From an uncultured Clostridia bacterium (GTDB taxonomy: Bacteria > Bacillota > Clostridia > Oscillospirales > CAG-272), in contig CALWJT010000033.1 in NCBI GenBank assembly GCA_944381075.1, positions 88,481-152,480 on the forward strand: 64,000 bases of DNA, written 5' to 3'. The first letter of the stretch is position 1. Each line of letters opens with the position of its first letter. A program made the translations under genes and the position numbers. Positions 7,411 through 22,653 of the stretch are shown here, one piece after another. The notes below the pieces were generated by a model. It made no database searches and was not told the origin of the DNA. It saw only the letters and a program-made list of their open reading frames with translations.

Positions 7411-7445
7411 AAAGGAGTCCTGCCATGGCAGGACTCCTTTTTTTA
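7411..7445. terminator. Terminator of the purine operon (bidirectional)
   Basis: A perfect 30-base palindrome (7411-7440) that folds into a stem of about 13 pairs with a CATG-like tip. On the minus strand it is followed by a T-rich tract, just after the purL stop codon; on the plus strand by TTTTT. Confidence 0.92.
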
Positions 7446-10400
7446 TGAGCGAAAATATTTGACTGCCGCACGGAACATTCCGATTTCGAAATCGCCCGGA
7501 ACATTCCGATAAAGTCCGGAGCCGACCCGTTCGGAATGGCCCATTTTGCCGAAGACTCGTCCGTCCGGAGAGGTAATGCCCTCCACAGCAAAAGCGGAAC
7601 CGTTGGGATTATAGCGGATGTCATAGGTCGGATTCCCGTCCATATCCACATACTGCGTCGCGATCTGTCCGCGCTCGGCAAGCGCGCGCACCGCGGCGTC
7701 AGAAGCAAGGAAGCGTCCTTCTCCATGGGAAATCGGGACCGTTATGATGTCCCCTACCCTCACCTCGGACAGCCATGGGGAAAGATTGGAGCATATCCTT
7801 GTCCGGACAAGCCTCGACTGGTGCCGCCCGATGACGTTATACGTCAGCGTCGGCGCCGTCTCGTCGGCATCGATGATTTTCCCGTATGGGACAAGTCCAA
7901 GCTTAATGAGCGCCTGAAATCCGTTGCAGATGCCTGCCATCAGTCCCGCACGGCGGTCAAGAAGCTCGCCTGTCGCCTCCCGCACGCCGGCATTGCGGAA
8001 AAATGCGGTGATGAACTTGCCGGAGCCGTCCGGCTCATCTCCGCCGGAGAAGCCGCCAGGAATGAAAATGATCTCGGACTCCGCGATCTTCTTCGCGAAC
8101 CGTTCGGCACTGCGGGAGATTCCCGCTGCCGTCAGATTGTTGACGACGAAGATTTCGGGCTCCGCGCCGGCGTCGGAAAACGCCTTGGCGCTGTCGTATT
8201 CGCAGTTGGTTCCCGGGAAAACCGGAATGAGGACCCTTGGCCTTGCCGTCCGAACGGCAGGCGCCGCAGGGCTGCCGCCTTCATAGGAGAACGCCGGGAT
8301 TTTCCCGTCCCGCTGCGGGATATTGCAGGGATAGACCGGCTCCAAAACCGCCTCGTACGCGCCGAGCAGCGAGCTCAAGGCGAGATTGCCGCCGTGATAG
8401 GAGATCACACGCTCGGGAATCGTCTCCCCAAGCGGGATGCCGATCTCCGCCGGCTCGGCAAGCTCTAAAATAAGAGAACCGTAGTGATAGCCGAACAGGT
8501 CCCTCATGGAAAGCGCCTCATCGTACCGGAAGCCGATCCCGTTGCCGAAGCACATCTTCATGACTGCCTCCGCAACGCCGCCCATTGTCGGCGTATAAGC
8601 GGCCAAGACCTTTCCTTCTCTCATCAGGGACGTTGCCCTGTCATATATCCGTACAAGAGATTCTGCCGTCGGAAGTCCGTTTTTGGCATACTCCGGACGC
8701 AGCCATACCGCATGGTGTCCCGCCGCCTTCCATTCGCCGGACAGGATATGCGCCGCCTTCTCCGTCGTAACGGCAAAGGAAACGAGCGTCGGCGGGACGT
8801 CGATATTCTCAAAGGAGCCGCTCATGGAGTCCTTGCCGCCGATGGCCGCGATGCCAAGATCCATTTGCGCCTTGAACGCGCCGAGCAGCGCCGCTGCCGG
8901 CTTTCCCCAGCGGTGCGCGTCATGCCCCGGTTTTTCAAAATATTCCTGGAACGTCAGATAAATGTCACGAAATTCCGCGCCGGACGCGATCAGCTTGGAA
9001 ACGGATTCCACAACGGCAAGATATGCTCCATGATACGGACTTTTTTCCGAAATCATCGGATTATAGCCCCACGCCATGACGGAACAGTCGTCCGTATGCC
9101 CTTTTTCCACAGGGAGCTTGTGCGCCATCGCCTGGATCGGCGTCAGCTGATATTTGCCGCCGAACGGCATGAGCACGGTTCCGGCGCCGATGGTCGAATC
9201 AAAACGCTCGGAAAGGCCCCGCCTTGAGCAGAGGTTGAGATCGCGCGCAAGCTTTCCGTATTCCGCGGCGAAATCTGTCCCGATCTCTTTTTCAAAGGCA
9301 AGAGGCGCAGCGGTCACGATCTCGATGTGCTTTTCCGCGCCGTTGGAGTTCAAAAAGGCGCGGGAAAGATCGACGATATCCGTTCCCCTCCAACGCATGA
9401 CAAGCCGCGGCTCCGCTGTTACCCTTGCCACAACGGTTGCCTCTAAATTCTCTGCGTCGGCAAGCGCCTGAAAATGCGCCGCATCCTCAGCAGAAACGAC
9501 GACCGCCATACGCTCCTGCGATTCGCTGATGGCAAGCTCCGTGCCGTCAAGACCCTCATATTTCTTCGGCACGGCGTCGAGATCGATGAAAAGCCCGTCC
9601 GCAAGCTCGCCGATGGCGACCGATACGCCCCCAGCGCCGAAGTCGTTGCACCGCTTGATGAGCCGGCTCGCCTCGGGATTGCGGAACAGACGCTGGAGCT
9701 TGCGCTCCTCCGGCGCATTTCCCTTCTGCACCTCCGCACCGCAACTCTCAAGAGATGAAAGATTATGAGATTTGGAAGAACCGGTAGCGCCGCCGCAGCC
9801 GTCGCGCCCCGTCCTTCCGCCGAGCAGGATCACGACGTCGCCCGGCGCCGGACATTCGCGCCTGACGTTTTCTGCCGGCGCCGCGCCAAGCACCGCTCCG
9901 ATCTCCATGTGCTTTGCGACGTATCCGGGATGATAGATCTCGTCGACCTGTCCCGTCGCAAGCCCGATCTGGTTCCCATAGGAGGAGTAACCGGCCGCAG
10001 CCGTCGTCACGATCTTTCTTTGCGGCAGCTTTCCTGGGATCGTCTGCGACACCGGAACAGTCGGGTTGGACGCGCCCGTCACCCGCATCGCCGCATAGAC
10101 GTAGGAGCGGCCGGACAGCGGGTCGCGGATGGCGCCGCCGATGCAGGTGGCGGCCCCTCCGAACGGTTCGATCTCCGTCGGATGGTTGTGCGTCTCATTT
10201 TTGAAAAGCAGAAGCCACGGCTCTGTTTTCCCGTCGATTTCCACGTCGATCTTCACGGTGCAGGCATTGATCTCGTCGGATTCGTCGAGCTTTTCAAGCT
10301 TTCCTGCCTTTTTCAGCGCCTTTGCCGCAAGTGTCGCGATATCCATTAGACAAATAGGCTTGGTCCTGCCAAGCGCCTCTCTTGTTTTCCGGTATTCCTC

Positions 10401-11135
10401 ATAAGCGGCGGCAAGCTCCGCGTCCGCAAAGCTTATCTTGTCGATGGTCGTGAGAAACGTGGTATGGCGGCAGTGGTCGGACCAATACGTATCGATCATC
10501 TTGATTTCCGTAATGGTAGGATCTCTGCCCTCTTCTCTGAAATAATCCCGGCAGAACCGGATGTCTCCTTCATCCATCGCGAGCCCGCGCTCGCGGATGA
10601 AAGCGGCGAGCCCCTCCTCGTCGAGTCCGGTAAAGCCCTCTAAAATCTCGACATCGGACGGAACAGCCACATCCGGCGTCAGCGTTTTCGGAAGCGCAAG
10701 GGAGGCCTCGCGGCATTCCACAGGATTGATGACATACTTTTTGACGCGATCGATATCCGCCGCCGTGAGCGTCCCGTAGAGAAGATAGACCTTTGCCGTC
10801 CGGACGGCGGGGCGCTCGCCCTCCGAAAGGATCTGGATGCACTGCGCCGCAGAATCCGCGCGCTGGTCGAACTGCCCCGGCAAATATTCCACCGCGAAGA
10901 CCGCAGCGTCCCCGGAATCGATCTCATCCCGCACGATATCGAGCTGCGGCTCTGCAAAAACCGTCCTCTTGCAGGCTTCAAACAGGGCGGCATCGATGTT
11001 TTCCACATCGTATCGGTTCAATATCCGAAGCCCTGTCAGGTTCTCCATATCGAGAAGCCCCGTAAGGTCGGCGAGCAGAGAGGACGCCTCGTGCGCGAGC
11101 TGCGGCTTTTTTTCCACATAAACTCTATATACCAT
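7443..11135 (-). CDS. purL: Phosphoribosylformylglycinamidine synthase (one-chain)
   Basis: Step 4 of purine synthesis: FGAR + glutamine + ATP gives FGAM. At 1230 residues this is the long single-chain form of many Clostridia (clade II), not the PurS/PurL/PurQ set of Bacillus. In order it has a PurS-like N-terminal domain, a linker, a duplicated AIRS-like synthase core (with SDHCRHTTFLT and the ATP/Mg segment KNETHNHPTEIEPFGGAAT), and a C-terminal class I glutaminase from about residue 970. The glutaminase nucleophile is the Cys of GICNGFQ and its His/Glu pair lies in SHGEGRF. AAGGAG precedes the ATG. It is the last gene of the purine operon, 11 bases after purD and ending on the terminator. 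Confidence 0.98.
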   Translation of the reverse strand: MVYRVYVEKKPQLAHEASSLLADLTGLLDMENLTGLRILNRYDVENIDAALFEACKRTVFAEPQLDIVRDEIDSGDAAVFAVEYLPGQFDQRADSAAQCIQILSEGERPAVRTAKVYLLYGTLTAADIDRVKKYVINPVECREASLALPKTLTPDVAVPSDVEILEGFTGLDEEGLAAFIRERGLAMDEGDIRFCRDYFREEGRDPTITEIKMIDTYWSDHCRHTTFLTTIDKISFADAELAAAYEEYRKTREALGRTKPICLMDIATLAAKALKKAGKLEKLDESDEINACTVKIDVEIDGKTEPWLLLFKNETHNHPTEIEPFGGAATCIGGAIRDPLSGRSYVYAAMRVTGASNPTVPVSQTIPGKLPQRKIVTTAAAGYSSYGNQIGLATGQVDEIYHPGYVAKHMEIGAVLGAAPAENVRRECPAPGDVVILLGGRTGRDGCGGATGSSKSHNLSSLESCGAEVQKGNAPEERKLQRLFRNPEASRLIKRCNDFGAGGVSVAIGELADGLFIDLDAVPKKYEGLDGTELAISESQERMAVVVSAEDAAHFQALADAENLEATVVARVTAEPRLVMRWRGTDIVDLSRAFLNSNGAEKHIEIVTAAPLAFEKEIGTDFAAEYGKLARDLNLCSRRGLSERFDSTIGAGTVLMPFGGKYQLTPIQAMAHKLPVEKGHTDDCSVMAWGYNPMISEKSPYHGAYLAVVESVSKLIASGAEFRDIYLTFQEYFEKPGHDAHRWGKPAAALLGAFKAQMDLGIAAIGGKDSMSGSFENIDVPPTLVSFAVTTEKAAHILSGEWKAAGHHAVWLRPEYAKNGLPTAESLVRIYDRATSLMREGKVLAAYTPTMGGVAEAVMKMCFGNGIGFRYDEALSMRDLFGYHYGSLILELAEPAEIGIPLGETIPERVISYHGGNLALSSLLGAYEAVLEPVYPCNIPQRDGKIPAFSYEGGSPAAPAVRTARPRVLIPVFPGTNCEYDSAKAFSDAGAEPEIFVVNNLTAAGISRSAERFAKKIAESEIIFIPGGFSGGDEPDGSGKFITAFFRNAGVREATGELLDRRAGLMAGICNGFQALIKLGLVPYGKIIDADETAPTLTYNVIGRHQSRLVRTRICSNLSPWLSEVRVGDIITVPISHGEGRFLASDAAVRALAERGQIATQYVDMDGNPTYDIRYNPNGSAFAVEGITSPDGRVFGKMGHSERVGSGLYRNVPGDFEIGMFRAAVKYFRS

Positions 11136-11146
11136 GGTTTTTCTCC

Positions 11147-12415
11147 TTATCCCAGCGCCGCAAGCGCGCGTGCGCCGATATCTTTTCTGTAAAAACCGTT
11201 TTCCAGCTTGACTTTTTCCACCTTCCGATAGGCTGCCTCCACCGCCTGCGGCAGGGTATCCGCAACGGCGGTCACGCCAAGTACACGACCTCCGGCGCTG
11301 ACAAGGCCGTCCTCCGTCCTTTTCGCGCCGGCGACATAAATGACGCCATCGTCTCCGTCGGCGGGATAAGAGAGCGGATAGCCGCTTTCATATTTCACCG
11401 GATAGCCCTTGGAGGCCACAATGACGCAGCAGGCGGATTTCTCACGGAATCGGACAGGCACCTCGGAAAGCCTGCCCGCCGCCGTCGCCATCATGATAGT
11501 GAGAAGATCGCCCTCCAGCAGCGGCAGTACGACCTGCGTTTCGGGGTCGCCGAACCGGCAGTTGTATTCGATGACCCGCGGTCCGGCCGGCGTCAGCATC
11601 AGCCCAAAATACAAGCAGCCGCGGAACGGACGCCCTTCCGCCTTCATCGCACGGATGGTAGGCAGAAAAATCGTCTCCATACAGCGCGCGGCGATCTCCG
11701 GCGTGTAATACGGATTCGGCGCTATCGTACCCATGCCGCCGGTGTTCGGACCCGTATCCCCGTCTCCCGCGCGCTTATGGTCCATGGAGGAGACCATCGG
11801 CACAAGCGTCTCCCCGTCCGTAAAGGAAAGCACCGAGACCTCAGGCCCCGTCAGGTATTCTTCTATGACGACCCGCGCGCCCGACTCGCCGAAAATCTTA
11901 TCCGCCATCATAGCGCGGACCGCCGATTTTGCCGCCTCGCGGGTCTCGGCGATGACAACACCCTTGCCGAGAGCCAGACCGTCCGCCTTGACGACGGCCG
12001 GAAGCGGCGCCGTATCGAGATAGGCAAGCGCCGCCGTCATATCGTCGAACACCTCGTAGGCGGCCGTCGGAATGCCGTATTTTTTCATCAGATCTTTGGC
12101 AAAAACCTTGCTGCCCTCCAAAATCGCGGCGTTTTTCCGCGGACCGAAGCAGGAAATGCCCTCGGCCTCCAGCGCGTCCACCACGCCGAGCACGAGCGGA
12201 TCGTCCGGCGCCACGACAGCGAAATCGATCCCCTTTTCTTTGGCAAAGGCGACGATGCCCTCGATATCCTTTGCGCCGATATCCACGCAGACCGCATCCG
12301 CGGCGATCCCGCCGTTGCCGGGGAGGGCATAAATGACCTCCACCGCCGGATTTTCCTTTAACTTTTTGATGATCGCATGCTCGCGGCCGCCGCCGCCGAC
12401 TACCATCAGCTTCAT
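11147..12415 (-). CDS. purD: Phosphoribosylamine-glycine ligase
   Basis: Step 2 of purine synthesis: phosphoribosylamine + glycine + ATP gives GAR. It has 422 residues, the normal length, with an ATP-grasp fold. The N-terminal GGGGREHAI, the loop DHKRAGDGDTGPNTGGMG and the metal-binding segment IEYNCRFGDPE are all present. The start is the ATG at 12415, behind GGGGAGGA; the frame stays open far upstream, but that part is only the shadow of purH. A 415-base gap without a gene separates it from purH, unusual in this otherwise tight operon. purL follows after 11 bases. Confidence 0.97.
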   Translation of the reverse strand: MKLMVVGGGGREHAIIKKLKENPAVEVIYALPGNGGIAADAVCVDIGAKDIEGIVAFAKEKGIDFAVVAPDDPLVLGVVDALEAEGISCFGPRKNAAILEGSKVFAKDLMKKYGIPTAAYEVFDDMTAALAYLDTAPLPAVVKADGLALGKGVVIAETREAAKSAVRAMMADKIFGESGARVVIEEYLTGPEVSVLSFTDGETLVPMVSSMDHKRAGDGDTGPNTGGMGTIAPNPYYTPEIAARCMETIFLPTIRAMKAEGRPFRGCLYFGLMLTPAGPRVIEYNCRFGDPETQVVLPLLEGDLLTIMMATAAGRLSEVPVRFREKSACCVIVASKGYPVKYESGYPLSYPADGDDGVIYVAGAKRTEDGLVSAGGRVLGVTAVADTLPQAVEAAYRKVEKVKLENGFYRKDIGARALAALG

Positions 12416-12830
12416 ATTGGTATCCTCCCCGCGCCGCCTTCTCCGGCCGCGCGCTGTATTTTCATTTGTCCATCGCTCCCCCTTCCAGAAGGGAATCGAG
12501 AAAGATTTCCACAGGCTATACCAGCAGGCAGCGCCGCCCCTCTCGGGGCATCCGCTCCGCCCGTAAACCTCTAAGCATTTTTTGATCAGAAAGCGGCGCC
12601 ACATGACCGTCCGTCCGCGGCGTGACCATAGGCGATATGAGGCCCGAACGCCGGTGCAGAAAATCTTCCCGCCTGACTTTCTCAAGCACCTTTTCCATCC
12701 GAATCCGGCGATTCCGCAAGACAGGAACAGACACATTTTCCCGGTCTTTCTCCGGAAAATCCGGTCTCGCATTTTATCCGATAAAAACGGCGGAAGCCGG
12801 CTCTCTTTCAGCCGGCATACCGTATAGGGA
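12416..12830 (-). other. Unusual 415-base gap inside the purine operon
   Basis: Between purH and purD I find no convincing gene. Read on the minus strand, it begins with a hairpin (12796-12816: 7-base arms GCCGGCT/AGCCGGC around a 7-base loop), followed after a few bases by GTTTTTATC. This could be a weak terminator that lowers expression of purD and purL. The remainder shows scattered short inverted repeats and no recognisable riboswitch or promoter. Confidence 0.4.
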
Positions 12831-14015
12831 TCAATGATGGAAAAGACGCATTCCCGTGAACGCCATCGCGATGCCGTACTTGTCGCAGCATTCGATGACA
12901 AGGTCGTCCCGCACGGAGCCGCCCGGCTCGGCGATATAGGATACGCCGCTCTTTTTCGCGCGCTCGATGTTGTCTCCGAACGGGAAAAACGCATCGGACC
13001 CGAGAGAAACGCCCGAAATCCCGGCAAGATAGTCCGCCGCTTCCTTTTCCGTGAGCGGCTCGGGACGGTGCGTGAAATATTTCTGCCAAACGCCGTCGGC
13101 GCAGACGTCCTCTTCGTTTTTATTGATATATCCGTCGATGACGTTGTCGCGGTCCGGTCTGCCGAGCGTAGACAAAAACGGAAGGGCAAGCACCTTCTCA
13201 TGACGGCGGAGCTGCCATGTATCCGCCTTATTTCCCGCAAGGCGCGTGCAGTGGATCCTCGACTGCTGTCCGGCGCCCACGCCGATGGCCTGTCCGTCCA
13301 CGGCGTAGCAGACGGAATTGGACTGCGTATATTTCAGCGTGATAAGCGAAATGACAAGGTCTCTCTTTGCGCTCTCCGGCAGCGACTTGTTTTTGGTGAC
13401 GACGTTCGAGAGCAGCGCCTCGTTTATTTCAAAATTGTTGCGTCCCTGCTCAAAGGTGATGCCGAATACTTCCTTTGTCTCAATCGGATCCGGAACATAG
13501 GAAGGGTCGATCTTTACGATGTTATAGTTCCCTTTCCGTTTGGTTTTCAGAATCTCCAGCGCCTCAGGCGTATAGCCGGGCGCGATGATCCCATCCGAGA
13601 CCTCGCGCTTGATGAGCAGCGCCGTCGTCTTGTCGCATACGTCGGAAAGGGCGATCCAGTCGCCGAAGGACGACATCCGGTCCGTTCCCCGCGCACGGGC
13701 ATAGGCGCAGGCGAGAGGGGAATCGTCCAGTCCCTCGATATCCTCCACAAAGCAGGCGGCCTTGAGCTCGCGGGAAAGCGGATTTGCCACAGCGGCGGAG
13801 GTCGGGCTCACGTGCTTGAACGAGGTCGCCGAGGGCATTCCGGTCGCGGCGGAAAGCTCATGGACAAGCTGCCAAGAATTAAAGGCATCCAGAAAATTGA
13901 TATAGCCGGGACGTCCCGAAAGGATCTCGATCGGCAGTTCTCCCCCATCCCTCATATAGATTTTCGCCGGCTTCTGATTGGGATTGCAGCCGTATTTCAG
14001 TTCAAATTCTTTCAT
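12831..14015 (-). CDS. purH: AICAR transformylase without cyclohydrolase domain
   Basis: Step 9 of purine synthesis: 10-formyl-THF + AICAR gives FAICAR. It has 394 residues and consists only of the AICARFT half of PurH; the ~200-residue N-terminal MGS-like IMP cyclohydrolase domain is missing. The catalytic Lys-His is in SFKHVSPTSAAV, and the motif GVGAGQQSRIHCTRLAG is intact. A separate cyclohydrolase, purO, lies 16 bases upstream in the same operon and completes the step to IMP. The protein ends in the usual FTGMRLFHH. The ATG is behind GGAAAGACAT. Its activity depends on the same formyl-folate pool as purN. Confidence 0.95.
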   Translation of the reverse strand: MKEFELKYGCNPNQKPAKIYMRDGGELPIEILSGRPGYINFLDAFNSWQLVHELSAATGMPSATSFKHVSPTSAAVANPLSRELKAACFVEDIEGLDDSPLACAYARARGTDRMSSFGDWIALSDVCDKTTALLIKREVSDGIIAPGYTPEALEILKTKRKGNYNIVKIDPSYVPDPIETKEVFGITFEQGRNNFEINEALLSNVVTKNKSLPESAKRDLVISLITLKYTQSNSVCYAVDGQAIGVGAGQQSRIHCTRLAGNKADTWQLRRHEKVLALPFLSTLGRPDRDNVIDGYINKNEEDVCADGVWQKYFTHRPEPLTEKEAADYLAGISGVSLGSDAFFPFGDNIERAKKSGVSYIAEPGGSVRDDLVIECCDKYGIAMAFTGMRLFHH

Positions 14016-14031
14016 ATGTCTTTCCTCCGTA

Positions 14032-14751
14032 TCACTTGTTTTTGTTGATCATGCGGTTCTGCACCGTACCGTCCGCAAGATCGATATAGCGGACGTACAG
14101 GGAAATCCGGTTGTCCGCGTCGAGCGCGCTCCAAAGAGAATCCGTAAAGGAATCGATGTCGTCCGGGATCTCCGTGCGCTCCGGTTCGCCCGTAAAGGTC
14201 GGGATGGGATTTCCGTCGCAGCGATATGTGTGGATAAAATGGCCGACTCCCGCAAGCGCCGGATACCGGAACAGATATCTTGCGCAGGCAGTACCTTCCC
14301 TGTCCGCACTTTTGAGGATACTCATCTCATAGGTAAAGTCTCCGTCCGCGATATGAAGGATGCCGCTGATGCGGGGCGTGAAATTCGGTGCGTCCGGCTC
14401 AAATTCGCGCGTTTCAAGCGCCTCGCCAAACGTCCTCCCTTCCTTGATAAAATCATAGATCGTGTCGGTCTGGTCGCCGTTTGTGACGATAACGTCTCCC
14501 CCGATGCGGCGGACCGGCGAATAAATGATGAGAGAGGGATCCTTCACCTTGGAAGCGTCGAACGGATGGATGATCACCTCATCGCCGCACTCTACAAAAA
14601 TCCGGTTGCGGCTGTTCTCGCTGCGTCCCATGATGAAATAGGCAAAAGCCGCCTTTTTCCCGTCCGCGCTCTTGCCGATGACGATGCCGCGGCCGACGTA
14701 GGAATTGCCGCGGACAAGAGAAGCCATGGACTGCGTTTGATAAATATCCAT
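14032..14751 (-). CDS. purO: PurO-type IMP cyclohydrolase
   Basis: Last step of purine synthesis: ring closure of FAICAR to IMP. The 239-residue protein matches the archaeal-type PurO/IMP_cyclohyd family (Ntn-hydrolase-like fold) rather than PurH. Family stretches include LVRGNSYVGRGIVIG at the N-terminus, AYFIMGRSENSRNR, and later TPRISGILHI. Position supports this: it lies directly before the AICARFT-only purH (16-base gap), which lacks this activity. The gap to purN upstream is 101 bases and contains a small hairpin. I identify the family by recall of these motifs; a profile search against PurO would confirm it. Confidence 0.85.
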   Translation of the reverse strand: MDIYQTQSMASLVRGNSYVGRGIVIGKSADGKKAAFAYFIMGRSENSRNRIFVECGDEVIIHPFDASKVKDPSLIIYSPVRRIGGDVIVTNGDQTDTIYDFIKEGRTFGEALETREFEPDAPNFTPRISGILHIADGDFTYEMSILKSADREGTACARYLFRYPALAGVGHFIHTYRCDGNPIPTFTGEPERTEIPDDIDSFTDSLWSALDADNRISLYVRYIDLADGTVQNRMINKNK

Positions 14752-14829
14752 TTTTATAAAATCCTTTCTTCACGCCAAAGAAAGACGTGTCATATATTTG
14801 GCAGTATCGTTACAGAAAAGAAAATTTTC

Positions 14830-14847
14830 CTCCCGTGCCGGCGGGAG
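14830..14847 (-). terminator. Possible weak intra-operon attenuator between purN and purO
   Basis: Six-base arms CTCCCG/CGGGAG with a 6-base loop, followed on the minus strand by GAAAATTTTCTTTT. The stem is short, so full termination is unlikely; it may adjust expression of the distal genes or stabilise mRNA ends. Confidence 0.3.
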
Positions 14848-14852
14848 CCTTT

Positions 14853-15470
14853 TTACCTCTGCCCCGCTCTTCGGATGTCCGCCGAAACCAGCTCCGCCGC
14901 CGCAGGCAGCAGCTTCCACTCAGCCTCCTCCATCACGCGGCGCTGCAGGACTTCCGGCGTGTCGCCGTCCCGCACCTCCACCGCCTTCTGAAGAATGATC
15001 TTTCCCCCGTCCGGCACCTCGTTGACAAAGTGTACCGTCGCGCCCGTCACCTTGACGCCGTAGGCAAGCGCCGCTTCATGAACGCGAAGTCCGTAAAAGC
15101 CCTTGCCGCAGAACGACGGGATCAGCGACGGGTGTACATTGAGGATCCGGTTCGGATAGGCGGCGGTAAAATCCGCCGAGAGTATGCTCATAAAGCCCGC
15201 AAGGACGATAAGCTCGATGCCGTATTCCCGCAAAAGCTTTAGGATTTGCTCTTCAAAAGTTTTCTGAGAGCCGCACGCCGCCCTCGTTACCACATGGGAA
15301 GGAATACCGGCGCGCGCCGCGCGCTCCAGCGCAAAGGCGCCCTCCCTGCTGGAGATCACAAGGGAAAGCCTGCCGGAATGCAGCGCTCCCGACGCCTCCG
15401 CGTCGATGAGCGCCTGCAGATTGGTTCCGCCGCCCGAAACGAGTACGGCGATCTTAACGGGATCTGTCAT
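14853..15470 (-). CDS. purN: Phosphoribosylglycinamide formyltransferase
   Basis: Step 3 of purine synthesis: transfers formyl from 10-formyl-THF to GAR. It has 205 residues and a Rossmann-like fold. The N-terminal phosphate-binding motif VLVSGGGTNLQALIDA is present. The catalytic Asn and His are in NVHPSLIPSFCGKGFYG, and the conserved Asp in VPDGGKII. Here the usual Asp-Gly-Gly-Pro-Ile variant reads DGGKII, which is common. It follows the FNT channel gene by 32 bases, and with purH it is one of two formyl-folate consumers in the operon. Confidence 0.96.
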   Translation of the reverse strand: MTDPVKIAVLVSGGGTNLQALIDAEASGALHSGRLSLVISSREGAFALERAARAGIPSHVVTRAACGSQKTFEEQILKLLREYGIELIVLAGFMSILSADFTAAYPNRILNVHPSLIPSFCGKGFYGLRVHEAALAYGVKVTGATVHFVNEVPDGGKIILQKAVEVRDGDTPEVLQRRVMEEAEWKLLPAAAELVSADIRRAGQR

Positions 15471-15502
15471 TTTTCAGCTTCCTCTCTGCCCGTTTTCGGG
15501 CG

Positions 15503-16174
15503 TCATGGTATCAGATGCTCGGTCTTGGAGGCCGCCTCCTCCGGCTTCGAAGTCGGATGCTCTTTCGGCGGTGTTTCGCGGCACAAAAGGAGCAGGGACG
15601 TCATCAGCACAGCGCCCGCCGCATTCCCAAGGATCACGATCCACAGATAGAAGAACGCTTCCATACTCACGATGCCGGACGCGGAAAAATAGAACATGTT
15701 GGCGATCGAATGCTCGAAGCCGCTGAGAATAAAGACCGGCACACAGAAAAAAATCCCCCAGACGGACTGGTTTTTTCGGTAGATGACGACGGCGAGGTAC
15801 ATCAGGATGCCGCAGAAGAGCGCACGGAGAAAGGTTTCCGGCGCCGTCTGCGCGAGCTTTCCCTCGCAAAGCGTCAGCGCCTTCTCACCAAGGGACGGCA
15901 TGGCGTACCGGATAGCAGCGCCGGCGGCAAAGGTGCCGATAAGGTTGCCGAGCAAAGACAAAAGCAGCGCCGAGACGTCCGCCCTCGTATGCGCCTCCAC
16001 GATAAAGCCGACTTTGCCGGTAAAGAGCGCAAAGCCGCGCATGCAGATACAGAGCAGCGCTACGGAAAAAAGCACCGCGCCTACATATTTGTTATCACAG
16101 GAAAGATAGACGCTGCCGCCGATCCCGATCAAAATACCGGCAAGGATGCCAAGCGTAAGATCCCGCCTCAGCAT
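15503..16174 (-). CDS. Formate/nitrite-transporter (FNT) family channel within the purine operon
   Basis: A 223-residue membrane protein with six hydrophobic segments. It carries the FNT signature GFEHSIANM, in which His155 corresponds to the central pore histidine of FocA, and a broken-helix segment [16 protein letters not shown] proteins are pentameric channels for formate, nitrite, hydrosulfide or lactate. The N-terminal cytoplasmic helix of FocA is missing: the first membrane segment starts almost at the Met. The ATG overlaps the purM stop by 7 bases, so the gene is translationally coupled into the operon, directly before purN. Its place beside formyl-transfer enzymes under a ZTP riboswitch points to formate as the substrate; that is inference. 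Confidence 0.88.
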
Positions 16175-17208
16175 AGCGTCACCCGCTCGTCCGAGGCCGT
16201 GATCTCGCCGAGGACATAGGCGTCCTCCCCTGCCCCGCGCAGGATAGAAAGGGCCGCATCCGCATCGGTCCCCGAAACGACGACGCACATGCCGACGCCC
16301 ATATTGAAGGTGTTGTACATATCCCGCTCCGGGATGCCGCCCGCCTTTGCGATCATATCGAAGATCGGCAGGACGCGCACGGCCTTCTTCTCGATCCTGG
16401 CGCCGAGTCCCTGCGGGATGCTGCGCGGAATATTTTCATAAAAGCCGCCGCCCGTGATATGAGAGATGCCCTTGACCGGGATTTTTTCAAGCAGAGCAAG
16501 GACTGGCTTTACATAGATTTTCGTCGGAGTAAGCAGCGTCTCACCGATGGACGTGCCGCCAAGCTCCGCGACAGGCATCCTGAGGTCCGCTTTCTCCACG
16601 TCGAATACGCGGCGCACAAGGGAAAAGCCGTTGGAATGCACGCCGGAGGACGGAAGCGCCAAAATGACGTCGCCCGCACGCATCGTCCCGTTGTCAATGA
16701 TGTCCTCCTTGTTGACGGCGCCGACGGAAAAGCCCGCAAGATCATATTCGTCCACGGGATAGAAGCCGGGCATCTCGGCCGTTTCGCCGCCGATGAGCGC
16801 GCAGCCCGCCTGCACGCAGCCCTCCGCCACGCCGGAAACGATGGCGGCGATCTTTTCGGGCACATTTTTCCCGCATGCGATATAATCGAGGAAAAAGAGC
16901 GGACGCGCGCCGCTGCAAATGATATCGTTGACGCACATGGCGACGCAGTCGATGCCGACGGTGTCATGCTTGTCCATCAGAAAGGCAAGCTTCAGCTTGG
17001 TTCCAACGCCGTCCGTACCGCTCACCAGCACCGGATGGCGGAATTCCCCAAGGTCCAGCGCAAAAAGCCCGCCGAAGCCGCCGATATCGGATACGACCCC
17101 GGGCGTCATCGTTCTTGCAATGTGCGCCTTCATCAGTTCGACGGCGCGATAACCGGCGGTGATATCCACGCCTGCCGCCGCATAGCTTTCTGACCTTGAA
17201 TTCTGCAT
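16168..17208 (-). CDS. purM: Phosphoribosylformylglycinamidine cyclo-ligase (AIR synthetase)
   Basis: Step 5 of purine synthesis: ATP-driven closure of FGAM to AIR. It has 346 residues, the normal length. The ATP-binding motif [13 protein letters not shown] and the following [19 protein letters not shown] are intact, as are [13 protein letters not shown] and the C-terminal MGVGMCVVV. The ATG lies behind GGAGAGAAGAT. It is preceded by the PurF paralogue (142-base gap) and overlaps the FNT gene by 7 bases at its 3' end. Confidence 0.97.
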
Positions 17209-17350
17209 ATCTTCTCTCCATTCTGCCGCTGTGCGGCCTGTTGTTATAGGATAAGGAGTTTATTTTAGATCTATGACCAAACCGGACTTACGCATACCGG
17301 CTTTTTCTGCATGACATCTTGTTGCCGGCCGGCAAAACAGCGGGAACGGC

Positions 17351-18775
17351 TCACTCCTTCCCGTCCCAGCAATAGGTGCAAAGCTTGCACGGATCGAGCC
17401 CGATGGCCTTGACGATCCCCTCCAGCGACTGAAATTCCAGCGATGCGAAGTGGAATTTTTCGCAGATGGTCTGTCTCAGCTTTTTTCCCCTCTCGGTCGT
17501 CCCGTCGCTGTATTCCTCGATGTGCTGGAAGCCCTCTTCTCCCTCAAGCTCCATGATGACGCGCCTTGCAATGAGCTCCATGTCGCTCGTCCCTCTGGAA
17601 AAATTGAGGTATTTGCAGCTATACATAATAGGCGGGCAGGCGGAGCGCATATGCACCGCCTTCGCGCCGTTGTCATACAGGAATTCCACGGTTTCGCGCA
17701 GCTGTGTTCCCCGCACGATCGAATCGTCGACAAACAGAAGGCTCTTGTCCTGAATCAGCTCATGAACGGGAACGAGCTTCATTTTCGCAACCTTGTTGCG
17801 TTCCGTCTGCTTTGGCGGCATGAAGCTGCGCGGCCATGTCGGCGTATATTTAATGAACGGACGTGCAAAAGGCACCCCGCTTTTGTTCGCATAGCCGATG
17901 GCATGCGGTGTTCCGGAATCCGGCACGCCTCCCACATAATCGATGTCGCGGGCGCTGCCGGTCTCCTTATCCTGCTGCGCCATGATCGCGCCGTTGCGGT
18001 AGCGCATGGCCTCCACGTTGATCCCTTCATAGCTGGAGGTCGGATATCCGTAATAGGACCACAAAAAGGCGCAGATCTTCATCTCTCCGCCAGGCGCGGC
18101 AAGCTGCCGTATCCCCTCGGCGGTCACCTCTACGATCTCGCCCGGTCCGAGCTCTCTCTCGTCCCGATAGCCAAGCTTTTGATAGGCGAAGGATTCAAAC
18201 GTGACGCAGAAGCCGTCCTCCCCGCGGCCGAGCACCACCGGCAGGCGCCCCACCTTGTCGCGCGCCGCAATAATGGCACCGTCGTCCCGGAGGATCAAAA
18301 TCGACGCGGTGCCCTCGATGACGCTCTGTGCGAACCGAATGCCCTCGGCAAAATCCTCCCTTTGGTTGATGAGCGCCGCGGCAAGCTCCGTCGCGTTGAC
18401 CGCTCCGCCGGTCATCGCGTTGAAATGTCCGCCGCCGCGGGTAAAGAATTTTTCCGTCAGCGCCTCGGCGTTGTTTATGATGCCGACGATACAGATCGCG
18501 TATGTACCCAGCTTGGAACGGATGAGAAGCGGCTGCGGGTCGCTGTCGCTGATACATCCGATGGCCGAGGTCCCCTTCATTTCTTCAAAAACATGCTCGA
18601 ATTTCGTCCGGAAGGGCGAATTTCCTATATTATGGATGACCCTTTGCAGACCGATTTCCCTATCATATGCAGCAAGTCCCCCGCAGCGCGTGCCGAGATG
18701 CGAATGATAATCCGTCCCGAAAAAAACATCGGCGAGGCACTCCCGCCTTGACGCGATCCCAAAAAATCCACCCAT
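17351..18775 (-). CDS. PurF paralogue with inactive glutaminase domain
   Basis: A 474-residue homologue of glutamine-PRPP amidotransferase. The N-terminus reads MGGFFGI where PurF has a free Cys (CGVFGV), so the glutaminase nucleophile is absent. HVRYGTTG and AHNGN, which position glutamine in true PurF, are also lost (the latter region reads VGIINNAEAL), as is the Asp of the TSDTE motif. The phosphoribosyltransferase half is kept, with the PRPP loop VDDSIVRGT at 349-357. Cysteines at 235, 387 and 463/466/469 correspond to the Fe-S ligands of Bacillus PurF. It lies between purF and purM. It may be an ammonia-dependent PRPP amidotransferase, a regulatory partner of PurF, or a different phosphoribosyltransferase. 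Confidence 0.85.
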   Translation of the reverse strand: MGGFFGIASRRECLADVFFGTDYHSHLGTRCGGLAAYDREIGLQRVIHNIGNSPFRTKFEHVFEEMKGTSAIGCISDSDPQPLLIRSKLGTYAICIVGIINNAEALTEKFFTRGGGHFNAMTGGAVNATELAAALINQREDFAEGIRFAQSVIEGTASILILRDDGAIIAARDKVGRLPVVLGRGEDGFCVTFESFAYQKLGYRDERELGPGEIVEVTAEGIRQLAAPGGEMKICAFLWSYYGYPTSSYEGINVEAMRYRNGAIMAQQDKETGSARDIDYVGGVPDSGTPHAIGYANKSGVPFARPFIKYTPTWPRSFMPPKQTERNKVAKMKLVPVHELIQDKSLLFVDDSIVRGTQLRETVEFLYDNGAKAVHMRSACPPIMYSCKYLNFSRGTSDMELIARRVIMELEGEEGFQHIEEYSDGTTERGKKLRQTICEKFHFASLEFQSLEGIVKAIGLDPCKLCTYCWDGKE

Positions 18776-18895
18776 ATCTTTGCTATCCTGCCTTCTTTCA
18801 AATAAATCATATACGACGGGAAAGCCCCGTCCTCGTCAAGAAATCCAACCCCCGCCGCCGGAAAGGCTCCAAGCCCCTCCCTGCGGAGTCTGCCG

Positions 18896-20335
18896 TTATC
18901 TTGGCTTCCGTCCCGCCGAAATTTTTCCCTCGAACCGGTCTTTTTCCGTATGCGCCGGCACCTCGGTCGGATAAGCGCCGTCAAAGCACGCGGTGCAGTA
19001 CCCGTCTCCATAAACGCCGTCGGCGATCTTCTTTGCGCCATCAATGCTCAAAAAGCCAAGAGAATCAACGCCGATGATCCGCGCGATCTGCTCTACCGTA
19101 TGATGGCAGGCGATCAGATTTTCACGGGAATCGATATCCGTTCCATAATAGCAGGGATTGAGGAACGGCGGTGCGGAAACACGCATATGGATCTCCTTCG
19201 CGCCTGCCTCGCGAAGCAGCTTCACGATCCGGGCGCTGGTCGTGCCGCGCACGATGGAATCATCGATCATCACGACCCGCCGTCCGCGCACGGTATCCGC
19301 AATCGGATTGAGCTTGATGCGCACCTTGTCCTCGCGGCTTTTTTGCCCGGGCGCGATGAACGTGCGTCCGATATATTTGTTTTTGATAAAGCCGATCCCA
19401 TATGGGATGCCGGACGCCCGGGAAAAGCCCAGCGCCGCGTCAAGGCCGGAATCCGGCACGCCGACGACGACGTCCGCGCACACGGGATGCTCCGCTGCAA
19501 GATATTCTCCTGCGCGTACACGGGCGGCATGGACAGAGCAGCCGTCTATCACCGAATCCGGCCGTGCAAAATAAATATATTCAAAGACACAAAGAGACCG
19601 CTTCGCCTTGCCGCAGTACGTGCGGATGCTGCGCACGCCTCCCTTTTCAAACACCAGGATCTCACCCGGCTCCACATCACGGATAAACGCCGCGCCGACG
19701 GCATCGAGCGCGCAGCTTTCCGAGGCGATGACATAGCGTCCGTCCGGCGTGCGGCCAAAGCAAAGCGGACGGAAGCCGTGCACATCCCTTACGGCGATCA
19801 GCTTGGAGGGGGACATGAGGATGAGAGAGTACGCGCCGTGAAGCCGCGGCATGGCACGCTCGACCGCCTGCTCGATCGAAGAGGCGGAAAGACGCTCCTT
19901 CGTGATGAGATAGGAGATCACCTCCGTATCGCTCGTCGTATGGAAGATCGAGCCGGCAAGCTCCAGCTCCGAGCGCAGCTCATAGGAATTGACAAGGTTC
20001 CCGTTGTGGGCGATCGCCATACGCCCCTTGATATGGTTGACGACAATCGGCTGGGCATTGTTCCGGTCGCTCGCGCCCGTCGTTCCGTAACGAACATGCC
20101 CGACCGCCATATTGCCCAGTCCCAGACCCGCCATCGCTTCAGGAGTGAACACATCGTTGACAAGCCCCGTATCCTTATAGGTGCGGAAAATCCCGTCATC
20201 GCCGACCACGATTCCGCAGCTCTCCTGCCCTCTGTGCTGGAGAGCGAACAGGCCGTAATACGTCATATGCGCGACATCATAGGGCTCCTCGCAGAAAACG
20301 CCGAAGACGCCGCATTCCTCCCGGATTTCACTCAT
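18896..20335 (-). CDS. purF: Glutamine-PRPP amidotransferase
   Basis: Committed step of purine synthesis: PRPP + glutamine gives phosphoribosylamine. It has 479 residues from the ATG at 20335 (AAAGGAAG site upstream); an ATG 24 bases earlier has no site. The propeptide MSEIREE precedes Cys8, the nucleophile exposed by self-cleavage. The glutaminase motifs HVRYGTTG, AHNGNLVN and TSDTEV and the PRPP loop MIDDSIVRGTTS are present. The Fe-S cluster cysteines of the Bacillus type are seen in SLCVFEY, NPCYYG and YCTACF, so the enzyme is probably oxygen-sensitive. Followed after 120 bases by its degenerate paralogue; purC is 28 bases upstream. Confidence 0.98.
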   Translation of the reverse strand: MSEIREECGVFGVFCEEPYDVAHMTYYGLFALQHRGQESCGIVVGDDGIFRTYKDTGLVNDVFTPEAMAGLGLGNMAVGHVRYGTTGASDRNNAQPIVVNHIKGRMAIAHNGNLVNSYELRSELELAGSIFHTTSDTEVISYLITKERLSASSIEQAVERAMPRLHGAYSLILMSPSKLIAVRDVHGFRPLCFGRTPDGRYVIASESCALDAVGAAFIRDVEPGEILVFEKGGVRSIRTYCGKAKRSLCVFEYIYFARPDSVIDGCSVHAARVRAGEYLAAEHPVCADVVVGVPDSGLDAALGFSRASGIPYGIGFIKNKYIGRTFIAPGQKSREDKVRIKLNPIADTVRGRRVVMIDDSIVRGTTSARIVKLLREAGAKEIHMRVSAPPFLNPCYYGTDIDSRENLIACHHTVEQIARIIGVDSLGFLSIDGAKKIADGVYGDGYCTACFDGAYPTEVPAHTEKDRFEGKISAGRKPR

Positions 20336-20363
20336 GGTATCGCTTCCTTTCCGGAACACAGGA

Positions 20364-21074
20364 TCATTTCAGCCCGACCCGGCGCATCATCTCCTGGTAG
20401 GCATCCTCCACGCCGCCGAGATCGCGGCGGAAGCGGTCCTTATCCAGCTTTTCATTGGTCTTTGCGTCCCAGAAGCGGCAGGTGTCAGGAGAGATCTCGT
20501 CCGCAAGGACGATCCTGCCGTCCGGAAGCCTGCCGAATTCCAGCTTGAAATCGACGAGCTTTACGCCCAGCCCCGCAAAATATTCCTTGAGGACGCGGTT
20601 GACGGTGAACGCCATCTGCTTGATCGTTTCGATCTCCTCACGGGTCGCGAGCTTCAGGGCGATCGCATGGTAGCTGTTGATGAGCGGATCATGCAGGTCA
20701 TCGTTTTTATAGGAAAATTCAATGGTCGGCTCGTCGAATACGATCCCCTCCTCCACGCCGTAGCGCTTGGCAAAGGAACCGGCGGAAATATTCCGGATGA
20801 TGACCTCCAGCGGTACGATGGAAACTTTCTTGACCACCGTATCCCGCTCGGAAAGCTCCTTTACAAAATGCGTCGGGACGCCGCGGCTCTCCAGAAGCTG
20901 CATCAAAAGATTAGACATCCGGTTGTTGACGGCGCCCTTGCCGGAAATCGTCCCCTTTTTCATCCCATCGAACGCCGTCGCGTCGTCTTTATACGAAACG
21001 ATGACAAGCGAGGGATCCTCCGTCGCATAAACCTTCTTTGCTTTTCCCTCGTAAAGCTGTTCTTTCTTTTCCAT
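20364..21074 (-). CDS. purC: SAICAR synthetase
   Basis: Step 7 of purine synthesis: CAIR + aspartate + ATP gives SAICAR. It has 236 residues. The N-terminus [16 protein letters not shown] is the classical PurC start, and [14 protein letters not shown] and VDFKLEFGR are the other conserved blocks. I chose the ATG at 21074 because it follows AGGAG at the right distance and matches the family start; the open frame further upstream is a shadow of purE. It is 46 bases after purE and 28 bases before purF. Confidence 0.97.
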
Positions 21075-21120
21075 ATATTTTTCGCTCCTATCCGCCGCCA
21101 TGCGGCAGGTTATTTTTCTA

Positions 21121-21615
21121 TCAAACGTTATAGGTCTCTTCGATCGCCTTATTTTTCGCCAGCACCTTTGCCCTGCCCTCTGCGCGCGCTGACGCAAGCT
21201 TATCGGCAAGCGCCGCATCCTCGACGGCGAGGATCTCGATACAGAGAAGCGCGGCATTGGCGGCGCCGTCGACAGCGACGGTCGCCACCGGGATCCCCGA
21301 GGGCATCTGCACGGTGGAAAGAAGCGCGTCCATGCCGTCAAAAACCGACGATTTCACCGGCACTCCCACGACGGGGAGCGTCGTATTCGCGGCAAGAGCG
21401 CCCGCAAGATGCGCCGCCATGCCGGCAAGCGCGATGACGGCGCCGAACCCGTTTTCTCGTGCGTCCTCGGCAAACGACCTCGCTTCGTCCGGCGTCCTGT
21501 GCGCGGAAAAAACATGCACCTCGAAGGGGACGCCATACGCCCTCAGCACCCCGATCGCCTTTTCCGCAACGGGAAGGTCGCTGTCGCTGCCCATAACAAT
21601 TGCAATTTTTTTCAT
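21121..21615 (-). CDS. purE: AIR carboxylase / N5-CAIR mutase
   Basis: Step 6 of purine synthesis. It has 164 residues from the ATG at 21615, preceded by GGAGAGGG; an ATG 15 bases upstream lies within that site. [16 protein letters not shown] and [20 protein letters not shown] are typical of class I PurE. No purK is found in the operon or the window, although class I enzymes normally need the N5-CAIR made by PurK. The loop AGMAAHLAG also differs from the usual AGGAAHLPG. The cell may have purK elsewhere, or this enzyme may use AIR and CO2 directly. First gene of the operon, behind the ZTP-type leader. Confidence 0.95.
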
Positions 21616-21661
21616 TGGTTCCCTCTCCATTCTGGAATGATTTTACAAAAGGCCAGCCCAT

Positions 21662-21705
21662 CAAAACAAAATGGGCAGTCCTATCCTTCTCGATAGGATC
21701 GCCCA
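21662..21705 (-). terminator. Riboswitch-controlled intrinsic terminator in the purE leader
   Basis: On the minus strand TGGGC (21705-21701) pairs with GCCCA (21676-21672), enclosing an inner stem CCTATC/GATAGG (21697-21692 with 21685-21680), followed by TTTTGTTTT. The outer arm TGGGC is part of the conserved 3' motif of the ZTP aptamer, so aptamer and terminator exclude each other. Confidence 0.85.
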
Positions 21706-21782
21706 GACGGTCGGCCGGATTCTTCTCCCCGTTCCCCTGTGGTGCTCCACATTCCGTCGGTTGCGGGAAATCCTGAATTTAC
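21701..21782 (-). promoter_or_regulatory. ZTP (pfl-type) riboswitch aptamer
   Basis: The leader between the promoter and purE fits the pfl/ZTP architecture. P1 is formed by GGATT (21773-21769) with AATCC (21721-21717). A small hairpin GTGG-AGCA-CCAC (21750-21739) follows, then the conserved AGGGGAAC, and finally CCGACCGTCTGGGC (ending 21701), close to the invariant CCGCCUGGGC block. In known cases ZTP or ZMP, which build up when 10-formyl-THF is low, stabilise this fold and prevent the overlapping terminator, turning genes on. Assigned by eye; an Rfam RF01750 covariance search would settle it. Confidence 0.87.
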
Positions 21783-21788
21783 GACAAT

Positions 21789-21817
21789 ATTATATCGTTT
21801 TTCAGCATTGTTGTCAA
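21789..21817 (-). promoter_or_regulatory. Consensus promoter of the purine operon
   Basis: On the minus strand a perfect TTGACA (21817-21812), a 17-base spacer and a perfect TATAAT (21794-21789). Transcription should start near 21782, exactly at the 5' edge of the riboswitch. A promoter this strong makes sense if control lies in the leader RNA. Confidence 0.93.
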
Positions 21818-21891
21818 GTATGAGTTTGACGATAATTCCGCATTTCCTGCCGGAAAAACCGACAAATTCCACAAGAGGGCCCGCCATGGCG

Positions 21892-22653
21892 TCAAAGCGC
21901 AGGCTTGACCGCTCTTGTCGCCCAGAACGTAGGAAGGTTCAGCTCCTGCAGAAGCCCCTCTCCGTTCGTGTCGCCGTACAGGTCCGTCAGCAAAAATCCC
22001 GCCTTCAGCTGTCCGCCGATCTGCTCTTCGATGGTATGAGAGAACTGGATGCCGTCGTCGCGCGCGAGGGACGCTTCATACGCCTTTTTATCCTTCAGGG
22101 GATTGAACGGAAGCGGGAAGCGGAGCGCCTCCTTCTCCTCGTCCCACGCATAATTTAAGCCGTTGTCCAGTCCGGAGAGCAGGATGCCTCCCCTTTTCAG
22201 CACGCGGAAGCATTCCCTCCAGACCGGCAGGACATCCTCGATATAGCAGTTGGAAACCGGATGGAAGATCAAATCGAAGCTTTCATCCTCAAATGGCAGC
22301 GGCTTTGTCATATCCGCCCTCACAAGACGGACCGCGTAGCCCTCGCGCGCCGCGACCATGCGCTCGCTCTCCAGCTGCCGCTCGGAATAGTCCAGCACGG
22401 TGCAGTCCGCGCCCAGCGCCGCAAAAACAGGGATCTGCTGTCCGCCGCCAGAGGCAAGTCCCAAGATCCTCGCGCCGGACATCCGGCAGAACCATTCGCG
22501 CGGAACCGGCTTCGTCGGCGTCAGAAGCACCTGAAAGTTTCCTTTCTCAGCCTCGGCATAGACCTCATGGGAGATCGGCCTTCCCCACTCCCAGCCGGAG
22601 GCGGCCCACCGGTCGATCGTTTCGGCATTGATATCGGTATAAGATTTTTCCAT
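21892..22653 (-). CDS. SAM-dependent methyltransferase
   Basis: A 253-residue class I methyltransferase. The SAM-binding motif ILGLASGGGQQIPVFAALGA is followed by the acidic VLDYSERQLE and the motif-IV region DESFDLIFHPVSNCY. The order matches UbiE/Methyltransf_11-like enzymes of Firmicutes often named only class I SAM methyltransferase. I chose the ATG at 22653 (GAAAGGAAAATGAA upstream), because the open frame further upstream does not look like protein. It follows the ABC permease gene by 138 bases on the same strand. Its stop lies near the start region of the purine promoter, but it is upstream of and independent of that promoter. Substrate unknown. Confidence 0.85.
   Translation of the reverse strand: MEKSYTDINAETIDRWAASGWEWGRPISHEVYAEAEKGNFQVLLTPTKPVPREWFCRMSGARILGLASGGGQQIPVFAALGADCTVLDYSERQLESERMVAAREGYAVRLVRADMTKPLPFEDESFDLIFHPVSNCYIEDVLPVWRECFRVLKRGGILLSGLDNGLNYAWDEEKEALRFPLPFNPLKDKKAYEASLARDDGIQFSHTIEEQIGGQLKAGFLLTDLYGDTNGEGLLQELNLPTFWATRAVKPAL

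Follow-up and report, generated by a model that had tools for sequence, protein, structure and literature searches.

A short channel gene of the FNT family lies within the purine operon of an uncultured Clostridia bacterium, and its product probably imports formate for the synthesis of 10-formyl-THF when ZTP signals a shortage. Formate import to refill the one-carbon pool had been proposed by a sequence-only reading of this DNA, and it is now supported by a conserved gene context and by a near-exclusion between FNT and PFL among the genomes of the same family. Formate as the substrate, the inward direction of transport, a single operon transcript and sensing in vivo are what we infer.

The window (the whole stretch of DNA that was analysed, 64,000 nt) carries the purine operon on its minus strand, in the order promoter, ZTP aptamer, purE, purC, purF, purF paralogue, purM, FNT, purN, IMP cyclohydrolase, AICAR formyltransferase, purD and purL. 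The features are as follows:

21789..21817, minus strand: sigma-70 type promoter TTGACA-17-TATAAT (12/12, consensus match only)
21694..21774, minus strand: ZTP/ZMP riboswitch aptamer RF01750, operon leader (covariance model 55.7 bits, gathering 39)
21646..21716, minus strand: possible terminator hairpin using the 3' part of the aptamer, then UUUU (predicted fold)
21121..21630, minus strand: purE (TIGR01162, 187.8 bits)
20364..21074, minus strand: purC, start MEKKEQ (TIGR00081, 254.4 bits)
18896..20335, minus strand: purF, cysteine type, start MSEIREE (TIGR01134, 525.4 bits)
17351..18775, minus strand: second PurF-like gene without N-terminal cysteine, begins MGGFFG (TIGR01134, 175.3 bits, below the cut-off of 350)
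16168..17208, minus strand: purM (TIGR00878, 441.3 bits)
15503..16174, minus strand: FNT-family channel gene, 223 aa (PF01226 Form_Nir_trans, E 2.2e-29)
14853..15470, minus strand: purN, 10-formyl-THF-dependent by family (TIGR00639, 192.6 bits)
14032..14751, minus strand: IMP cyclohydrolase PF07826 (213.9 bits; below NCBIfam archaeal PurO cut-offs)
12831..14015, minus strand: stand-alone AICAR formyltransferase (NF005492, 675.2 bits)
11147..12415, minus strand: purD, start MKLMVV (translation reading and same-order homologues in relatives)
7443..11135, minus strand: purL (translation reading and same-order homologues in relatives)

The start of the FNT gene overlaps the end of purM by 7 nt, the TGA of purM lying within the shared ATGCTGA, and a gap of 32 nt separates it from purN downstream. 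This arrangement had been read from the letters, and it was confirmed by the coordinates and by the Pfam match (PF01226, 103 bits, curated cut-off 34.6), which places the open reading frame in the FNT superfamily. Six promoter matches were found in 11000-22100 (4.8 expected by chance, both strands), and the sole minus-strand one precedes the aptamer, which fits one transcript without proving it. A single pur transcript is not certain because terminator-like sites occur between the genes; 22 were found in the same interval (12.5 expected), 11 of them on the minus strand and some in the gaps around the second purF and before purM. It has been reported that for the ZTP (pfl) RNA class more ligand likely raises expression (PMC2864571) and that ZTP is a signal of 10-formyl-THF deficiency (PMC7266159). 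In the predicted fold, the 3' part of the aptamer with the hairpin and UUUU appears to have the layout of an ON-switch expression platform; the fold of 21625-21785 had a z of -1.67, and 12 of 200 shuffles were as good.

In this operon PurH is replaced by the stand-alone AICAR formyltransferase and the PF07826 IMP cyclohydrolase (12831-14751, minus strand), which is common to many relatives. An AICAR formyltransferase with a separate IMP cyclohydrolase is the archaeal-style split. The second PurF-like gene also belongs to a wider type: all 49 PurF2-type matches that begin at residue 1 (loci L031-L161) start with MGGFFG, MGGYFG or MSGFFG (41, 6 and 2), with no N-terminal nucleophilic cysteine. 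Among these loci a match to the cysteine-type PurF was found in L053 and L091 only, and the window carries both types. The cysteine-less paralogue may use ammonia or a partner glutaminase.

The AlphaFold model of the FNT protein had a mean pLDDT of 82.3, with the C-terminal residues 201-223 below 50. Its nine helical elements may be read as the six membrane helices of known FNTs, of which two are broken. A Foldseek search with this model returned FNT channels for nearly all of the 50 best-listed solved structures, and HSC, FocA and NirC were all matched. Among the matches listed, the HSC of C. difficile came first (TM 0.78 by query, 26% identity, E 5.3e-8) and FocA next (E 3.2e-7), and LciA (9v2a), a bicarbonate transporter with the FNT fold, was also present. 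H155 aligns with the pore histidine of V. cholerae FocA, and we take it as the equivalent of H209 in E. coli FocA. The pore histidine and six helices recognized earlier were thus both recovered, the former in the alignment and the latter in our reading of the model. H155, L50, T52 and N184 (the pore His, the Omega-loop Leu and Thr, and the TM6 Asn) are shared by the window protein and 73/73 FNTs linked to one-carbon genes; the pore histidine is also retained in 47/48 unlinked sequences, with rows shorter than 170 aa left out of these counts. The pore histidine matters for uptake, because the H209N variant of FocA was efflux-only in vivo (PMC12559229).

The protein scored far below the equivalog cut-offs for FocA (TIGR04060, 59.7 bits vs 290.1) and NirC (NF008595, 38.7 bits vs 293). 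The pore positions were mapped manually onto the published subgroups (PMC5525234), using our own alignment with V. cholerae FocA. Glu208 is as in FocA, NirC and HSC; a basic residue at 167 is as in NirC-alpha, NirC-beta and HSC; Gly at 172 and an aromatic residue at 254 are as in YfdC; and Lys/Arg at 93 is as in none of the subgroups described in the available text. The window protein is best called a member of an unassigned short FNT subgroup (median length 204 aa in the linked set, as extracted), whose pore residues appear to fit no single one of the eight subgroups in the available text of that survey. The pore residues alone would not predict formate; neither they nor the fold single out a substrate, and both partly resemble nitrite and hydrosulfide channels.

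The FNT/purM/purN neighbourhood, for which a survey had been suggested, proved to be conserved across genomes; the refutation foreseen for a neighbourhood that relatives do not share thus fails, although the six congeners searched lack the gene. In the GTDB genomes scanned, 50 loci were found to encode an FNT relative, and their neighbours were assigned by tblastn with the purine proteins of the window and an Fhs of the family. The order purM-FNT-purN was found in 26 of these loci; 2 had FNT behind purM where the contig ends, 2 had it beside purO, 4 had the order FNT-glyA-fhs, and 16 were unlinked. In the GTDB family of the window, 76/196 genomes had an FNT match (G140 was scored positive from a match under the family cut-off), and 32 of these 76, the window's own genome counted, had purM-FNT-purN; in G116 this order is split across two contigs (L155, L159). 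The scan loci and the family genomes partly overlap, and one identical purM-FNT-purN protein was merged. Because the same order recurs in dozens of genomes, chance adjacency of FNT to pur genes was rejected. The junction itself is also conserved. Among 57 purM-FNT junctions, window excluded, 32 show the same overlap of BLAST matches as the window (4 nt between match ends, 7 nt including the stop codon), and in 50 the FNT match is no farther than 30 nt from where the purM match ends.

Several other contexts tie FNT to one-carbon metabolism. The order FNT-purO-fhs was found in three genomes (G048, G146 and G188; loci L100, L132 and L136), FNT-fhs in two (G062 and G114; L133 and L139), AICARFT-FNT-purD in one (G168; L091) and FNT-glyA-fhs in L061-L064, where fhs was assigned by tblastn, and SHMT by Pfam in L061 and by clustering with L061 in the other three. 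No such linkage was seen in 35/76 FNT genomes. That the FNT gene belongs to a ZTP-led pur operon, as had been claimed, holds for the window, with its aptamer of 55.7 bits, and for nearly all comparable loci. FNT stands behind purM in 60 loci, and in 47 of them the sequence includes purE and over 300 nt of its upstream flank. A same-strand ZTP riboswitch precedes the purE match by 29-299 nt in 46 of the 47, and in the remaining locus, L118, none was found before purE. The search model was built from 24 aptamers, of which 17 are among the 46 matched, and the other 29 are independent. In L061-L064 and in genomes G048, G125, G146, G166 and G188 the riboswitch stands straight before FNT, at 59-104 nt from the match in at least 5 FNT genomes. 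The ZTP counts in the family (at least 35/90, at least 5 and at least 31/76) are lower bounds, and distances run to the profile match rather than to the start codon.

The distribution of PFL carries most of the argument for import. In the window's own genome (93.6% complete), no match was found to PF02901 or to TIGR01255 (E ≤1e-130 for the latter); congeners G001, G003, G005 and G006, the only ones in the PFL sample, all have PFL. Over the 196 family genomes, 10 had both FNT and PFL, 66 FNT only, 80 PFL only and 40 neither (Fisher p 4.5e-14). When FNT was shuffled within genera, on average 18.5 genomes had both, and none of 20000 shuffles reached 10 or fewer. In the 18 genera mixed for PFL, FNT was commoner in the PFL-less members in 13, rarer in 0 and tied in 5 (sign test p 0.0002). 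When completeness of at least 90% and contamination of no more than 5% were required, the counts became 8/35/51/22 (both/FNT only/PFL only/neither; p 1e-7), a table hand-typed from the completeness columns and tallies. By gene context, PFL is present in 2/41 genomes with one-carbon-linked FNT, 8/35 with unlinked FNT and 80/120 without FNT, and within-genus shuffles of the linked set gave p 0.0008. This set of 41 genomes was hand-assembled; it takes in G116 and leaves G030, whose FNT is divergent from purE (L154), unlinked. All 32 genomes in which purM-FNT-purN is intact lacked a PFL match, and the split-contig G116 is PFL-positive.

The FNT-PFL rule is shown for the family of the window only, because among 196 genomes sampled across the class 13/20 with the short FNT type were without PFL, compared with 82/176 of those lacking the short type (p 0.16). 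A class-wide rule was thus not upheld for the long (p 0.12) or the short type and was weak for all FNTs pooled (p 0.02), the two types being our own division by bit score. At least 35/90 PFL genomes of the family also have a ZTP riboswitch upstream of pflB, 26-141 nt from the match. Therefore, the same switch heads either the formate-making gene or the channel.

In 9 genomes the PFL match stops near model position 665, including the linked genomes G116 and G146, and the idea that PFL is dead in these two was rejected. Both remain PFL-positive because they hold a split PFL with an adjoining 80-aa glycyl-radical subunit. This form was seen in 7/7 fetched loci whose match ends near that position (L185, L186, L187, L188, L189, L190 and L193) and not in the 2 full-length ones fetched. 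Its large subunit, of about 700 aa, has a short tail containing Cys and lacks a glycyl-radical motif; after it come the 80-aa subunit with RVSGYAV and, further on, a radical-SAM activase-like gene (by eye).

Other genes of formate and one-carbon metabolism were also located. The own genome carries fhs away from the purine operon (G000:C11:85355-87167, minus strand), preceded by its own ZTP riboswitch at about 69 nt from the match; fhs was found in 171/196 family genomes and FolD in 183/196, the own genome included in both. Since FolD is present, serine is an alternative source of 10-formyl-THF. Formate dehydrogenase of the TIGR01591 type was rejected as a formate source, its alpha subunit (E ≤1e-80) being found in 1/196 genomes. 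For a carrier without PFL and without detected Fdh no major source of formate is known, although such a carrier retains Fhs, which consumes formate. In the proposed mechanism, a fall in 10-formyl-THF would raise ZMP/ZTP, and the riboswitch at 21694-21774 would switch the operon on, so that the channel would be made together with PurN and AICAR formyltransferase, the enzymes needing its product. Formate would enter through the channel together with a proton, and it would be drawn from the surroundings because the cell has no detectable PFL. Fhs, headed elsewhere in the genome by the second ZTP riboswitch, would couple it to tetrahydrofolate to give 10-formyl-THF for PurN and AICAR formyltransferase. 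This circuit had been called feed-forward; feedback is the better term, because the channel would relieve the very shortage that is signalled by ZTP.

Three other explanations were weighed against import. The FNT could export formate, as FocA does in fermenting enterobacteria, with formate arising from reverse Fhs or minor reactions and the place in the operon being only regulatory. FocA is bidirectional (PMC12559229), and with Fhs and FolD both present serine-derived formate is conceivable. However, an exporter of PFL-made formate predicts FNT together with PFL, and the family shows the opposite, FNT occurring mostly where PFL is missing; loss of formate during a ZTP-signalled shortage of 10-formyl-THF would be counterproductive, and the pore histidine needed for uptake is kept in 73/73 linked sequences. 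We therefore favour import and regard export as very improbable. Even less credible is that the FNT gene just rides along in the operon and has nothing to do with purine synthesis. Its absence from the six congeners searched and from 120/196 family genomes would agree with this, but the conserved overlap with purM, the several other one-carbon contexts and the within-genus PFL pattern speak against it.

Transport of another small anion, such as hydrosulfide, nitrite, or bicarbonate for the PurE carboxylation step, is the least improbable of the three, though still unlikely. The closest fold among the Foldseek matches listed is HSC, and the bicarbonate transporter LciA (9v2a) is among them. However, repeated linkage to fhs, glyA and ZTP riboswitches points to formate, as does the exclusion of PFL, for which we see no reason with other anions. 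The hydrosulfide channel HSC has its gene context in sulfite reduction. The FNT of the window, although best matched by C. difficile HSC among the structures listed, has its context in one-carbon metabolism. Formate import itself has observations against it: 40/196 genomes do without FNT and PFL alike, 10 carry the two together, FolD offers a route from serine, HSC was ranked first by Foldseek among the matches listed, and FNT is missing in six congeners.

The window-type channel shares with the FocA/PflB system of Escherichia coli the FNT fold, the pore His and Thr and the FFHA central constriction, and it is shorter than FocA. FocA is linked to PFL (PMC5525234; PMC12559229), whereas the window-type FNT is found chiefly in PFL-less genomes and is associated with genes that consume formate. 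The known ZTP (pfl) riboswitch regulon includes purH, fhs, pfl, glyA and folD (PMC2864571). The window has the same riboswitch, which would likewise serve to restore 10-formyl-THF, and it differs by the proposed import of formate where PFL is missing; the available text of that report mentions no FNT gene. The nearest physiological precedent found is the proto-cooperation in yoghurt, where formate from Streptococcus thermophilus feeds the PFL-less Lactobacillus bulgaricus (PMC4672519). Like the FNT carriers, this PFL-less organism is thought to use its partner's formate for purine metabolism, but the available text describes no purine-operon channel. The main text of the FNT survey PMC5525234 has 0 occurrences of 'purine' and 'tetrahydrofolate'. 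The earlier remark that no such circuit had been seen described agrees with our search, in which no open-licence title or abstract start listed described a purine-operon FNT gene or one controlled by a ZTP riboswitch; supplementary gene lists could hold an unremarked entry.

That many gut and rumen bacteria without PFL carry FNT in, or wired to, their purine genes suggests that they import formate from neighbours. In a broader reading, which we find plausible with somewhat less confidence than import itself, ZTP riboswitches in this family would govern formate supply in two interchangeable ways, by making it with pflB or by importing it with FNT. Lineages that lose PFL would repeatedly acquire or keep FNT in a purine or fhs operon and become formate-dependent partners, forming in gut and rumen communities a genetically marked guild that lives on cross-fed formate for its purines, with the short FNT subgroup as the channel. 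If so, a transporter would be added to the ZTP riboswitch regulon, and import would be predicted for channels of a family known chiefly for releasing formate. The gene would also mark bacteria whose purine synthesis may require formate from a neighbour, a dependence known mainly from yoghurt (PMC4672519), and the near-exclusion of FNT and PFL makes this dependence directly testable.

FNT was not found in the six congeners searched, three of them at least 90% complete, so that the window's genome is the only one of seven in its genus with FNT. Among 22 FNT-less genomes from FNT-holding genera, 20 had a purM match, and in 20/20 purN follows without an FNT match; the empty site is therefore visible. 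The FNT of the window is nearest to that of G187 (71%). Its PurN and PurE are 76-80% and 77-79% identical to those of genus mates and 62% and 66% to those of G187; PurM and PurO gave no distinction between genus mates and G187. Wholesale transfer of the operon into this genome is thus not favoured, PurN and PurE being closer to genus mates than to G187. The comparison does not separate a gain of only the FNT gene from its loss by the congeners. A tree of 119 distinct FNT sequences was built by a quick method from rows of at least 150 aa, without FocA, NirC or HSC references; 42/116 inner branches are open, several branches are long, and gain and loss are not separable by it. Linked copies cluster in this tree, and purM-FNT-purN requires 12 changes, compared with 39.9 when shuffled.

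In genus g6 (L090, L102 and L114), the FNT gene is followed by a gene of the beta-eliminating-lyase family (PF01212), possibly a threonine aldolase yielding glycine.
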